This document shows positions 1,422 through 7,330 of a stretch of DNA of 64,000 bases, piece by piece. Origin of the DNA: Solibacillus sp. FSL H8-0538. GTDB taxonomy: Bacteria; Bacillota; Bacilli; Bacillales_A; Planococcaceae. Positions within the stretch are counted from its first letter, which is position 1. Each line of letters opens with the position of its first letter. A program made the position numbers and the translations under genes. The notes under the pieces are model-generated. The model made no database searches, had not been told where the DNA came from, and was given only the letters and a program-made list of their open reading frames with translations. The stretch spans positions 2,347,001 through 2,411,000 of the forward strand of contig NZ_JBBOPI010000001.1 of the NCBI RefSeq assembly GCF_038003525.1, given 5' to 3'.

Positions 1422-1507
1422 TATAAGAAATGGAAAGAGAAGCACACTGAAAAGAGAGCTCTCGCTTCCATTTCCTAGCCCCCGAAGAAATGCGCAAATT
1501 GTTTACA

Positions 1508-1655
1508 AGGCAGGTCTCCTGGCTTCGCTTCATCCTCATCATTCACCTTCCCGTACCTTCGTACAGTGGCTATTGAATATTCGTCAGCGTTACAGTTGCG
1601 GGGACAGCATCAGCATCTCACTGATTTCCCTTTTAATCTACATATAGTAGAACCT
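1508..1655 (-). ncRNA. Cobalamin riboswitch upstream of nrdA
   Basis: Read on the minus strand, the segment contains the B12-box side GTCCCCGCAACTGT followed by GCCACTG and ends with GCCAGGAGACCTGCC, the hallmark 3' part of cobalamin aptamers. The aptamer points towards nrdA and is followed by an intrinsic terminator at 1387-1421, so ligand binding most likely causes premature termination. Aptamer class (adenosyl- or methyl/hydroxo-cobalamin) was not resolved. Confidence 0.93.
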
Positions 1656-1699
1656 TAATAAACAAAACACTATATATTGTATCGTTAGAAACTCATGTC

Positions 1700-1806: not shown

Positions 1807-2475
1807 TCACGCACGGTAAATTTTCTTCACCGGGGCTGTTATTAACTTATTAAATTTTTCCACAAACTCTTCGCGCACTGCGACAAGTACTGCCGTGGAT
1901 GGCCCTGCTGAGCATTGTAAATCAATGTCACATGTATAGCCTGCTCCGATAAAGCGCTCAATTTCTGCACCAATTCCTTTTGAACCAGTTGGCCACACTG
2001 CTGTAACGATATTCGCTTGCAGTGCCGTATGAATTTCTCCTAGCTTAGCCACCTTTTGCGCGTTCGCTATAACCGCATCTCCAACGAGTGGCATACCTAC
2101 TAGGAAAAATTGGCAATCTATTTTTGTTACATGAAACGTCGGACGCCCAATAATCGTTAACGATAAACCCGATTGCAGCGACTCAAAATTGGATTCACTA
2201 GAACCTGTTACTGGTGGCAACGGCTCACTTATTTCATCAAAAACTTGCTGAAAGCCGCGCAAATAACCGTCCCATGCATCATTGCCCGAAAAATTGGCAA
2301 GCAGAAGTTGCGCTGGCTTAGCTCCTGCGCACCACTGCTCAAGTACGGCCACACGCGCTGTAAAATAAGCATTTACTTCATTTGGTACCTGCACAAGGTC
2401 AGCTTCCTTTTCACCAATACAGCCGGCATTATCAATTGTGACAATCATTTCATCAATAGCTACTGCATTTCTCAT
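1807..2475 (-). CDS. cblS: Alpha-ribazole kinase (CblS-like, PurM/AIR-synthase fold)
   Basis: This 222-residue protein begins with an acidic segment around residues 12-26 (TIDNAGCIGEKEAD) and ends with a glycine-rich GPSTAVLVAV stretch, resembling AIR-synthase-related ATP-binding proteins. In Listeria and Geobacillus, CblS of this type phosphorylates alpha-ribazole, replacing the CobT route to alpha-ribazole phosphate. Here it is the last gene of a cobalamin operon, overlapping cblT by ATGA, and no cobT is present, which fits. The start has an AAGGATT ribosome site. Assignment rests on operon context and general resemblance; another PurM-fold kinase is possible. Confidence 0.72.
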   Translation of the reverse strand: MRNAVAIDEMIVTIDNAGCIGEKEADLVQVPNEVNAYFTARVAVLEQWCAGAKPAQLLLANFSGNDAWDGYLRGFQQVFDEISEPLPPVTGSSESNFESLQSGLSLTIIGRPTFHVTKIDCQFFLVGMPLVGDAVIANAQKVAKLGEIHTALQANIVTAVWPTGSKGIGAEIERFIGAGYTCDIDLQCSAGPSTAVLVAVREEFVEKFNKLITAPVKKIYRA

Positions 2476-2963
2476 GATTGTAATCCTTGTTTTTGTACGA
2501 TTGGTTTTAAAATTGGCATCACAACCATGACAAGTACTACATTAATCACTGTTGCTACGAGTAGTGAAGGCACTGATCCAATATAAAACTCCGGGGATAC
2601 TAAGAAATAAAACGGGAATGGTGAAATAATACCGTTCGCGATAATTAAAAATATCCATTTCAATAGTTTAAAGTTTTTACGGTGTAATACATTAAATACA
2701 TAGACAATAATAAACATTTCCGCTGCGATTAATGCATGAAATACACCTAGGGGCATCCCTGCGCTAAGTCCCGTTGCAAGATGACCAATCGCTCCTGCAA
2801 AGCCAGAATACAGTGGTGGTAAAAATAACACACTTAAAAAAGCTGGTGCAGAATCAAGTGCCGCTGTTGTAATAAATCCTGGCACTTTAATGAAACTACC
2901 AATCACACAAATTGCTGCTACTAGTGCCGTTAACACCATTAAACGTAATTTTACTTTATCCAT
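2472..2963 (-). CDS. cblT: ECF-type transporter substrate-binding (S) component, CblT-like
   Basis: A 163-residue membrane protein with about five hydrophobic segments and the MVLTALVAAICVIGSF opening typical of ECF S components. It sits directly before cblS with an ATGA overlap, so its likely substrate is alpha-ribazole, imported for lower-ligand salvage; this is inferred from the CblT/CblS pairing known in Firmicutes. The start at 2963 was chosen over upstream starts because AAAGGAGAA lies just before it and the S-component family begins here. The energising ECF A/A'/T module is not in the window and would be shared. Confidence 0.78.
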   Translation of the reverse strand: MDKVKLRLMVLTALVAAICVIGSFIKVPGFITTAALDSAPAFLSVLFLPPLYSGFAGAIGHLATGLSAGMPLGVFHALIAAEMFIIVYVFNVLHRKNFKLLKWIFLIIANGIISPFPFYFLVSPEFYIGSVPSLLVATVINVVLVMVVMPILKPIVQKQGLQS

Positions 2964-2965
2964 GT

Positions 2966-3379
2966 TTATTCTCCTTTTAATAGCTGCGGAATGCCGTACC
3001 AAACACGTACAACCTGCTCGCTTTCTTCGCATAATTTTTGATATAGCCTGCCACATGTATCACGCAGCTGTCTTTGTTTTTGATCAAGTGGTACAACTCC
3101 GCGGCTCATATCGGTGCAAATGCAAATAACAGTTGTCTCTTGGTCAAGCTGTACAAGCTTTGCACTTAGTTTTTCCGCAACAATGTCTTCATCTATGTGA
3201 AGCCTAGTTTCGATTATTTTTTCAAAGCTCCCAATAATGATAAATTGCTCTTTTGTAAATGCTTTATCAGCGGGGAGTTCTCCTTCAAATGTAAAAATCC
3301 GATGCGAAGCAATAGCTTTTAATTGTGTTTTGACGTATTGTCTTTTTCCGTTAAAAGCGCCTCCGAGTATAACTTGCAT
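2966..3379 (-). CDS. Short CobU-like protein without a normal P-loop
   Basis: A 137-residue protein whose C-terminal half (DMSRGVVPLDQKQRQLRDTCGR, then VWYGIPQLLK) resembles the end of CobU, the adenosylcobinamide kinase/guanylyltransferase. The N-terminal loop reads GGAFNGKR instead of GGxxxGKS, and the histidine region seen as RIERHQQDR in the neighbouring full-length CobU (4689-5240) is missing. It starts after a strong AAGGAGGTG site and overlaps the cobC 3' end by 61 nt; cblT follows after 2 nt. It may be a specialised or non-catalytic CobU partner. The function is not known. Confidence 0.62.
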   Translation of the reverse strand: MQVILGGAFNGKRQYVKTQLKAIASHRIFTFEGELPADKAFTKEQFIIIGSFEKIIETRLHIDEDIVAEKLSAKLVQLDQETTVICICTDMSRGVVPLDQKQRQLRDTCGRLYQKLCEESEQVVRVWYGIPQLLKGE

Positions 3380-3930
3380 CGCGCACCTCCTTGAAAGTCC
3401 TTAATGTTTGACCATTCTAAAGTATAGAGTGTTCGGTGATTCGCCATTACTTGCTGAAAATTGGTTACATCTGGCGCAAATTGTGCAAGTAATATCCGAA
3501 TAACCCCTCCGTGTACAACGAATGTATACTGTCCAGCAGCAACCACAATGTCCTTGACTGCATTTAATACGCGTGCTTGAAACGCAGCTAAGCTTTCACC
3601 GTTTAGAGGTGGATTATTTCCTGGGCAATCAATCCATGCACGATACGACAAATTATCTTTTAATTCTTCATACGTCTTCATTTCAAAATCACCGAAATGC
3701 GTTTCACGTAAATCCGCATGTGCTTTAAACTTAGCAGATGGAAAATACAGTGCTGCCGTTTGCTCACAACGCATTAAATCACTTCCGTAAACGACAGTTG
3801 TTGCTACTGGAATATTCATATGTACTTGCTCTGTCACGATTGGTTCATCTGTCCAGCCAATGTATTTACGGGCTATATTTGCCGCTGTTTTTTCGTGGCG
3901 AATTAAATGAAGAATAACGCGGTCATCCAT
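3319..3930 (-). CDS. cobC: Histidine phosphatase, CobC-like alpha-ribazole phosphatase
   Basis: A 203-residue phosphoglycerate-mutase-fold phosphatase. The catalytic LIRHEKT motif is at residues ~9-15, a second arginine/glutamate region at ~90-97 (LRETHFGDFE), and the second catalytic histidine in VVHGGVIR near residue 139. CobC removes the phosphate from adenosylcobalamin 5'-phosphate or alpha-ribazole phosphate in the last steps of B12 assembly. The gene overlaps cobS by 28 nt upstream and the CobU-like gene by 61 nt downstream, so it is translated as part of a tightly packed operon. The last ~20 residues lie entirely in the overlap. Confidence 0.82.
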   Translation of the reverse strand: MDDRVILHLIRHEKTAANIARKYIGWTDEPIVTEQVHMNIPVATTVVYGSDLMRCEQTAALYFPSAKFKAHADLRETHFGDFEMKTYEELKDNLSYRAWIDCPGNNPPLNGESLAAFQARVLNAVKDIVVAAGQYTFVVHGGVIRILLAQFAPDVTNFQQVMANHRTLYTLEWSNIKDFQGGARCKLYSEALLTEKDNTSKHN

Positions 3931-4676
3931 AACACAAGCTCCGTCCCTTCACATAAAGCACCGAGCAGATCCCCGCTCATGCCACCAAAATTTTTCGTCG
4001 TCCAGTGACGATAAATTACTACAATTATCGCAATTATCACGAATAACACTGCTAATCCTGTCAGTTGCAACCAAATAACAGCTGCTAGTAAACCCATTAC
4101 ATAAACAGCCACCAACCATTTTAATAAAACAGGCTCTACAGTCTTCTTAAAATACGCAGCTAAGCCTTTTTCCTTTGATGGCTTCATTGTTAAAAAGTAC
4201 AGTAAAATCGCCATACGAGCGAGCATAGGTATACAAATGAAATACGGAAGAAGGGCAGTACTTCCATGCTGTAACGCTTCATAGATGACGCCTATCTTTA
4301 ACAATAGTAAACACATTAAACTGATAGCACCGAATGCACCCGTGCGAGGATCATCTAAAATTTCTAGACGCTTTTCCTTATCCCCATACGAAAAATATGC
4401 ATCACTTAAATCAACCCAGCCATCTAAGTGAATGCCACCTGTAAATGCTATTGTAGCCACGACGAGTAGTATTACTAAAAATAGCGTAGAAACCGGTGCA
4501 ACCGTTGTGAAAAGCAGTACCAAACACGCAAGAACGGTTCCCATTAGTAAACCGATAAAAGGCAACCAACCATACATCCATGTTACACTTCTCGCATTCA
4601 TAGCAACCTGCTTCTGAACGGGAATCGCCGTAAAAAATTGGATTGCTAAAACAAATCCAGTTAAACTATTTTTCAA
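3903..4676 (-). CDS. cobS: Adenosylcobinamide-GDP ribazoletransferase (cobalamin synthase)
   Basis: This 257-residue integral membrane enzyme joins adenosylcobinamide-GDP to alpha-ribazole (phosphate) to give the complete cobalamin. Family features visible are the N-terminal AIQFFTAIPV segment, the acidic GGIHLDGWVDLSDAY motif at residues ~80-95 that binds metal and nucleotide, DDPRTGAFGA at ~107-116, and GGMSGDLLGA near the C-terminus, with several hydrophobic helices between. The start is a TTG preceded by GGTGA. It overlaps cobC and follows cobU by 12 nt. Confidence 0.93.
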   Translation of the reverse strand: MKNSLTGFVLAIQFFTAIPVQKQVAMNARSVTWMYGWLPFIGLLMGTVLACLVLLFTTVAPVSTLFLVILLVVATIAFTGGIHLDGWVDLSDAYFSYGDKEKRLEILDDPRTGAFGAISLMCLLLLKIGVIYEALQHGSTALLPYFICIPMLARMAILLYFLTMKPSKEKGLAAYFKKTVEPVLLKWLVAVYVMGLLAAVIWLQLTGLAVLFVIIAIIVVIYRHWTTKNFGGMSGDLLGALCEGTELVLWMTALFFI

Positions 4677-4688
4677 TCTTATTTCACC

Positions 4689-5240
4689 TTACTTCCATTG
4701 TTGTACGAGTTGAAACTGTACTTCATACGCCTCATCACTATTATAAACAATCCACTGGTGCAATTGCCCTAAAGTTTGGCGATATAAATTGACTTCCTCG
4801 TACCCTGAAGGCGGTTCGTCTAACACCTCATTTGAAACGATAACGACATTTACTCCATTTGTCTTCCAAGTAGTAAGTTGCTCCTTAAAGCCGTTTATAT
4901 ACGCTGCGATAGCGCGATGACGGTCAGATGCTTGCTCTGTATAGTAAAGTATGTTGGATAACCAAGTCGTTACGCATTCGAAAAGCACGATTTCTTTACG
5001 TGCGTATGTCTCTACAACTTTTGGAAACTCCGTCTGCATTTCGATTGTTTGCCACTTGAGCGGTCCTTGATTACGATCTTGTTGATGGCGTTCAATCCGT
5101 TTTTGCATTTCCTGATCAAATGCTACACCGGTAGCAATATAAATACACTCTTTTCGGTACCCTAACTGTTCAACGAGGCGTTCGGCAAAGGCACTTTTTC
5201 CGCTTCGTACCCCTCCAGTAATAAAGGTTAGCTTTCCCAT
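4689..5240 (-). CDS. cobU: Adenosylcobinamide kinase / adenosylcobinamide-phosphate guanylyltransferase
   Basis: A 183-residue bifunctional enzyme that phosphorylates adenosylcobinamide and then attaches GMP, giving the substrate of CobS. The P-loop GGVRSGKS is at residues ~9-16, the RIERHQQDR segment carries the histidine expected to be guanylylated, and VIVSNEV precedes the C-terminal half. Length matches the family (~180). It lies between btuF (64 nt upstream, with a hairpin between) and cobS. Confidence 0.93.
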   Translation of the reverse strand: MGKLTFITGGVRSGKSAFAERLVEQLGYRKECIYIATGVAFDQEMQKRIERHQQDRNQGPLKWQTIEMQTEFPKVVETYARKEIVLFECVTTWLSNILYYTEQASDRHRAIAAYINGFKEQLTTWKTNGVNVVIVSNEVLDEPPSGYEEVNLYRQTLGQLHQWIVYNSDEAYEVQFQLVQQWK

Positions 5241-6962: not shown

Positions 6963-7048
6963 ATACTAAATAGATTGTCAAAAAAACTCTACTAAATCGC
7001 CGTACATTCTCTTTAATTCCGAAGAGCGTTGTTACGTTCAGAAAAAGA

Positions 7049-7207
7049 TTGGTCTCCTGGCTTGCGCTTCACTTTACTTATGAACGCCTTCCCATCCATT
7101 TGATAGTGGCAATATGTTCATGTTCATCAGCGCTTACAGTTACGGACATAGCTTCGGATTTTCACCGAATTCCCATTTATGCATAATGCATCTTTCCCCT
7201 GCAAACT
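7049..7207 (-). ncRNA. Cobalamin riboswitch controlling the B12 scavenging operon
   Basis: On the minus strand the segment carries GGGAATTCGGTG, a cobalamin B12-box region (TCCGTAACTGTAAGCGCTGA), GCCACTATC and the terminal GCCAGGAGACC. It points into the adenosyltransferase-btuF-cobU-cobS-cobC-cobU-like-cblT-cblS operon. The terminator at 6936-6962 indicates transcriptional control by the pathway's end product. Confidence 0.93.
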
Positions 7208-7330
7208 TATTCACTTGAATAACAATGTATCATAGTATTTTGTGAATTTATAGATAAATCCTAAAAAATTTAAAATTCAGCTTTATTTTATACTATTTAT
7301 TACATGAAAGCTATAATACCATATTCATAA

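Follow-up and report, generated by a model that had tools for sequence, protein, structure and literature searches.

Two CobU relatives with complementary motif losses in Solibacillus and other Bacillota: a probable two-subunit adenosylcobinamide kinase/guanylyltransferase

The adenosylcobinamide (AdoCbi) kinase/AdoCbi-phosphate (AdoCbi-P) guanylyltransferase CobU, which research since the 1990s has treated as one protein chain, appears from its sequences to have been split into two complementary subunits in many Gram-positive bacteria. Both are encoded in a B12 nucleotide-loop operon on the minus strand of a 64,000-nucleotide stretch of Solibacillus sp. FSL H8-0538 (assembly GCF_038003525.1, contig NZ_JBBOPI010000001.1, positions 2,347,001 to 2,411,000), hereafter the window, to whose numbering the coordinates below refer. 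A long CobU of 183 amino acids (4689..5240(-)) has intact P-loop, guanylylated-His and DC motifs and has lost the C-terminal motif, and a short relative of 137 amino acids (2966..3379(-)) comprises the CobU core without the guanylylated-His element, with the P-loop Ser replaced and the C-terminal motif kept. Together, the long and short proteins probably constitute a heteromeric AdoCbi kinase/guanylyltransferase whose active site would be completed across the subunit interface. The pair shares with canonical CobU (PF02283; structures 1C9K, 1CBU, 8YEP, 8YKC, 7TM8 and 9VIO) its fold, its family and its operon neighbours CobS and CobC, and jointly holds its motifs, but canonical CobU is one polypeptide and here the motifs are divided over two reciprocally degenerate proteins.

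The short protein had been described in an earlier note, made from the DNA sequence alone, as a CobU relative lacking the P-loop Ser and the guanylylated-His region, and this description is borne out. Its PF02283 match (35.3 bits; cut-off 27) places residues 43-132 on profile positions 73-166, the C-terminal half, compared with 139.4 bits over profile positions 1-160 for the long neighbour; with this match the unrelated family which the note had allowed for can be dismissed. Its P-loop-like sequence GGAFNGKR (3341..3364(-)) carries Arg at the position of the CobU Ser. The AlphaFold2 model of the short protein (mean pLDDT 92.8) retrieves CobU chains as all of its best 24 PDB matches with Foldseek, the 25th being a phage P4 ATPase (E 2.4e-3). 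Relative to the model of the long protein, one strand is missing, as is the helix at long residues 43-58 on which His52 is located. The short protein is indeed 46 residues shorter than its neighbour (183 minus 137), and its gene starts with ATG and has the strong ribosome site that the note had reported, AAGGAGGT five bases before that codon.

Judged by its motifs, the neighbouring long CobU is reciprocally degenerate, a feature that gives the pair a mechanism. It retains the P-loop GGVRSGKS (5193..5216(-)) and His52 (5085..5087(-)), the latter at an alignment position occupied by His in 100% of canonical CobUs; we take this position to correspond to the guanylylated His46 of Salmonella CobU. 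Its C-terminus, however, follows the pattern SNEVLDE....Y...LG.LHQ, compared with NEVGxGIVP...R.[FY]RD..G..NQ in canonical CobU, such that residues 137-141 (4818..4832(-)) read NEVLD where the canonical enzyme has NEVGx. The motif absent from the long protein is found at residues 93-107 of the short protein, RGVVP.....R..RD (3059..3103(-)). The description of the neighbour as a full CobU in the earlier note thus does not stand, since its own C-terminal motif is lost.

This reciprocity extends well beyond the window. Counted as the core pattern G[IV]VP...R..RD, the C-terminal motif is carried by 36 of 38 canonical proteins and 180 of 186 short ones, but by 0 of 185 long ones; in the window, the short protein has it and its long partner does not. 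A stricter pattern that includes the first Gly is matched by 38/38, 0/185 and 143/186, respectively, and the short protein of the window, with Ser at that position, fails it. Identical sequences were merged in these sets, which comprise 110 Bacilli proteins, 28 and 40 from outside the Bacilli and seven fusion halves for the long type, and 110, 29, 40 and 7 for the short. The canonical set is non-random, consisting of the 30 best-scoring loci of a 299-genome class sample (some from genomes with two CobU matches) and eight genomes with a single CobU match over the cut-off, after removal of the loci of paired genomes and of L225-L227 (genomes G300 and G446), where the CobU frame looks broken. By column, the P-loop Lys is 100% conserved in canonical CobU and in all three long groups, and the His is 100% conserved in canonical CobU and 100, 96 and 100% in the long groups; the His column is unoccupied in the three short groups, and the DC columns are unoccupied in most. 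The Pro of GIVP is found in 92% of canonical proteins, in 11 and 11% of the two larger long groups and in 100% of all three short groups, with a similar distribution for the first Arg (92% canonical; 6 and 14% in the two larger long groups; 100, 97 and 100% in the short groups). Between them, the long and short proteins hold every canonical CobU motif.

This complementary loss suggests that the C-terminal motif is contributed in trans. The long subunit would supply the P-loop, the GMP-carrying histidine and the DC motif, and the short subunit the C-terminal G[IV]VP...R..RD motif, which would act on the P-loop/His site of its partner. Canonical CobU is a homotrimer, and in such a homo-oligomer the C-terminal motif of every subunit would serve the one next to it; following duplication, the catalytic side alone would have survived in one copy and the donated side alone in the other. 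The resulting complex, of perhaps 1:1 stoichiometry, would produce AdoCbi-P and AdoCbi-GDP for CobS, whose presence in the operon gives context for the two proposed activities. With two CobU activities and two proteins from closely placed genes, one might instead envisage separate enzymes, one an AdoCbi kinase and the other a guanylyltransferase. Such a division is very unlikely, since the long protein has both the P-loop and the His, whereas in the short one the former is degenerate and the latter missing, a split that does not follow the activities, and since the fusions and covariation described below point to contact.

Within the window's family, pairing is seen without exception. A protein search finds the short protein in 188 of 200 genomes, and the 12 genomes without it (two of them only 76 and 81% complete) all lack a PF02283 match as well. 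Among 61 family genomes, 54 have one near-full-profile and one C-half PF02283 match each, two of these with a third match under the cut-off, and the other seven have none. Both proteins occur in 80 of 80 named loci (those kept of 137 relatives), nearly all titled as Planococcaceae genera. One record titled Arthrobacter (L156) carries the pair amid the Planococcaceae and is perhaps mislabelled. The short gene is under purifying selection: close pairs give a median dN/dS of 0.15 (18 of 19 usable), and those of the long gene 0.14 (21 of 21 usable). The short protein has residues that are invariant over ten families. Although truncation and loss of the P-loop Ser are what a decaying duplicate without function would display, its breadth of occurrence, joint absence with CobU, invariant residues and low dN/dS make this reading next to impossible, and the single-genome decaying copy that the earlier note had entertained is rejected.

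Within the class to which the window belongs, ten families have the pair, and it also occurs elsewhere in the Bacillota. In the class sample, CobU is over the cut-off in 175 of the 299 genomes and the short protein is matched with E below 1e-15 in 45, comprising 26 of the window's family and 19 spread over nine further families; the match ranking next (3e-11) is part of a complete canonical CobU. Long proteins were fetched from those 19 genomes, from G001 and from 20 loci of the window's family. A wider alignment places the short type in other Bacillota, and in a phylum sample of 398 genomes, 239 of which match at all, at least 25 genomes in 15 families have a short-type match, with one further match cut by a contig end (G1008); the remainder among the matches listed are partial C-terminal ones, nearly all in longer reading frames. 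Loci were additionally fetched for five of the 25 (G991, G972, G981, G932 and G931), and in all five the long type is found beside the short. One genome, G715, holds two long/short pairs (L291 and L292), in the second of which the short gene directly follows the long.

A sample of 150 genomes from the distant family f131, presumably Lachnospiraceae, a name suggested solely by how many genera this one family contains, yields 94 with hits to a long-short query. Of these, 78 have hits in at least two places, five have one match spanning both halves and 11 have one partial match. Among 40 loci chosen for having long and short proteins on one contig, the order long-CobS-short occurs in 39, with CobC next in 28 (several stretches end there). 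Nine of the 11 genomes with a single partial match were fetched, G828 and G892 having no listed place; they comprise a pair with a 104-residue short protein (G789), a fusion (G819), a canonical CobU (G833) and six long types that are weighed below.

Natural fusions place the long and short proteins in one reading frame in eight f131 genera (L287, L335-L340 and L403), each fusion bearing two PF02283 stretches by Pfam, and in two other genera the short protein is fused to the CobC phosphatase (L341:2478-3461(-) and L342:2626-3603(-)). A tree of N-terminal parts with 98 rows, for which 35 of the 38 canonical rows were used (three over 260 amino acids were left out) and the long rows were subsampled to 63, requires only one change to part long from canonical proteins (94% of 200 bootstrap trees; branch support 95/63), consistent with the split having arisen once. 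Seven of the fusions were placed on this tree and fall in five places (L287; L336; L338; L339, at an unresolved fork; and L335 with L337 and L340), and several relatives appear to have rejoined both parts into one gene.

Across ten families, all 40 of the 40 loci compared maintain the order long-CobS-CobC-short, with intervening genes possible, and cobC overlaps the short gene in 20 of 20 same-family loci when frames are taken from the first start codon. In the window and many relatives the short gene also adjoins the genes named CblT and CblS, and the earlier note had suggested that it might serve a novel step there, possibly one that handles alpha-ribazole. In 15 of 40 loci with the pair, however, the fetched stretch yielded no CblT and no CblS, a count that rests on short stretches and on profiles from the window's family, by which some may be missed; the pair therefore follows CobU, CobS and CobC rather than alpha-ribazole salvage. 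Moreover, the motif kept by the short protein is that of CobU, and the fusions found join it to the long CobU or to CobC. An action on alpha-ribazole together with CblT and CblS is accordingly rejected as the specific role of the short protein, being highly unlikely. In 12 of the 20 same-family loci (L033-L051), a divergent PduO-type adenosyltransferase with 25-29% identity to that of the window follows the short gene, lying between it and CblT (e.g. L033:6707-7342).

Covariation between the two proteins was examined by mean-field direct coupling analysis (DCA) of 185 distinct long-short pairs (111 Bacilli, 67 other and 7 fused; effective number 158), excluding within-protein pairs nearer than five residues. 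The top coupling overall, within or between proteins, joins Val139 in the NEVLD loop of the long protein to Val95 in the RGVVP of the short protein, with a score of 3.19 compared with maxima of 0.88-1.46 in 12 within-clade permutations. Further couplings surround this pair (L140-N10, V150-V95, D141-R93 and R48-V96, long residue first). In control subsets, couplings reach 1.39 for long-CobS and 1.18 for short-CobS versus 3.07 for long-short (n=177), and 1.45 for long-CobC versus 2.69 (n=160). The states at V139-V95 are size-compensating (V-I 96, I-V 25 and L-V 19 of 185) and negatively correlated (r=-0.64), a value for which 0 of 1000 simulations of independent evolution are as extreme on each of two trees; the correlation of Asp/Glu141 with Arg/Lys93 is reached in 1 of 1000. 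Couplings between the short protein and CobC rise to 2.68, mainly from overlapping reading frames: the 3' end of cobC and the 5' end of the short gene share 61 nucleotides (3319..3379(-)), and five of the six strongest couplings (short 2, 15, 14, 10 and 9 with CobC 186, 199, 198, 194 and 193) fall at a constant residue offset of 184. This signal was set aside as a rival to the long-short one, and is itself a caution for coevolution studies of overlapping genes.

Reciprocal loss, pairing without seen exception in the window's family, fusions and covarying loops are most economically explained by one heteromeric enzyme, and co-occurrence, joint absence in that family, synteny, fusions and covariation lend strong support to the proposal in the earlier note that a conserved pair would indicate a partner. 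A number of observations weigh against so simple a picture. Of the 110 Bacilli long proteins, 41% still have the second Arg of the C-terminal motif and 94% still have Gly155, and the core pattern fails in six of the 186 short ones. The cobC overlap confounds those couplings that involve residues 9 and 10 of the short protein, the covarying pairs were picked post hoc, and the shared-branch changes at V139-V95 are moderate (9 of 32 and 29, all nine compensating, P 4e-4), a cruder coding of the same test ranking this pair a weak 889th of 13,231. Order or strand differs in L345 and L350, and in G518 (75% complete; the contig ends in cobS) the short protein is present and no long one was found. The Walker A pattern GK[ST], replaced by GKR in the window's short protein, is intact as GKT in 29 of 186 short proteins and as GKS in none (one has no pattern match); these were counted by pattern, since the N-terminus of the short type stays outside the alignment when hmmalign is run against the canonical model. 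With GKT surviving in some and Gln replacing the P-loop Lys in a few, the site seems, on these sequences, free of catalytic constraint.

Also against it are six f131 genomes of 90-100% completeness (G770, G834, G838, G846, G854 and G866), each with a long-type CobU that lacks the C-terminal motif. These orphans (L401, L404, L405, L406, L407 and L408) are all over the PF02283 cut-off, and three are directly followed by CobS and CobC. No short partner was found in the fetched loci or elsewhere at E 1e-3 with a single-sequence query, by which a diverged short protein could be missed. The orphans must work alone, with an unseen partner or not at all, and they weigh against obligatory pairing everywhere, unless such a diverged partner was missed; pairing holds in the window's family, but the proposed dependence on the short protein may have been lost, or may never have been absolute, in some lineages. 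This lowers confidence in a two-subunit enzyme and raises it in the alternative that the long protein performs all of the chemistry alone, with the short protein a regulatory or stabilising pseudo-enzyme that binds it. Retention of the P-loop, His and DC motifs by the long protein, the degenerate P-loop of the short one and the orphans themselves all favour such a regulator, which would also account for co-occurrence, fusions and covariation. It is nonetheless an unlikely alternative: the long protein lacks a motif found in most canonical and short proteins, and a regulator would not be expected to retain exactly the residues lost by its partner, nor to be absent, in the window's family, only where CobU is absent too. 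The heteromeric enzyme remains the probable reading. A tentative extension of it, rather improbable as it stands, is that the short subunit is a scaffold linking CobU to later nucleotide-loop enzymes, the split having freed it to assemble a CobU-CobS-CobC metabolon in which AdoCbi-GDP and AdoCbl-phosphate would be passed on directly. This would be consistent with its fusion to both long CobU and CobC, its overlap with cobC in the window and its position next to cobS or cobC in most loci.

At the head of the operon, a cobalamin riboswitch (7030..7210(-); Rfam RF00174, 95.5 bits) precedes, in order, a PduO-type adenosyltransferase, a BtuF-like protein, CobU, CobS, CobC, the short CobU relative, an ECF S component and a putative CblS. 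CobS (3903..4676(-); PF02654, with TIGR00317 over its cut-off) is the AdoCbi-GDP ribazoletransferase that uses the CobU product, and between it and the short gene lies a CobC-type alpha-ribazole phosphatase (3319..3930(-)) identified by PF00300 (91.2 bits) and by TIGR03162 at 105.1 bits, below the cut-off of 162.9. The ECF S component (2472..2963(-); PF12822, 33.3 bits, cut-off 30.7) is presumably CblT, given its position. The final reading frame (1807..2475(-)), with no Pfam or NCBIfam match over cut-off, we take, likewise from its position, to be the alpha-ribazole kinase CblS. A second cobalamin riboswitch (1492-1673(-), 125.5 bits) lies upstream of an apparent ribonucleotide reductase gene at the left window end, hinting that an alternative reductase is controlled by B12, the identity of the gene having been judged by eye.

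The proposed arrangement finds a mechanistic analogy in the F1-ATPase, in which homologous catalytic and non-catalytic subunits share interface sites. The alpha and beta subunits have the RecA-type fold in common with CobU, and when the long model is compared with the PDB, F1 subunits rank first after the CobU structures, but the CobU pair is not a member of that family and there is no sign of a rotary or hexameric machine. CobY, the non-homologous archaeal guanylyltransferase, carries out the same second half of the CobU reaction but belongs to a different family, whereas the short protein matches CobU. In the parts of the open-licence literature accessible to us (including PMC5718407, PMC6461909, PMC8123684, PMC6593275 and PMC3541065), among which no CobU structure paper was found, a two-part or heteromeric CobU is not described.

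If CobU is a two-part enzyme in many Bacillota, probably including Lachnospiraceae of the gut (should the family name hold), B12 predictions made from genomes by counting CobU genes may credit a single half as the whole enzyme. The pair also makes testable the question of which CobU residues act across subunits, and it predicts that the C-terminal motif works in trans, for which the natural split, fused and orphan forms would be ready material.
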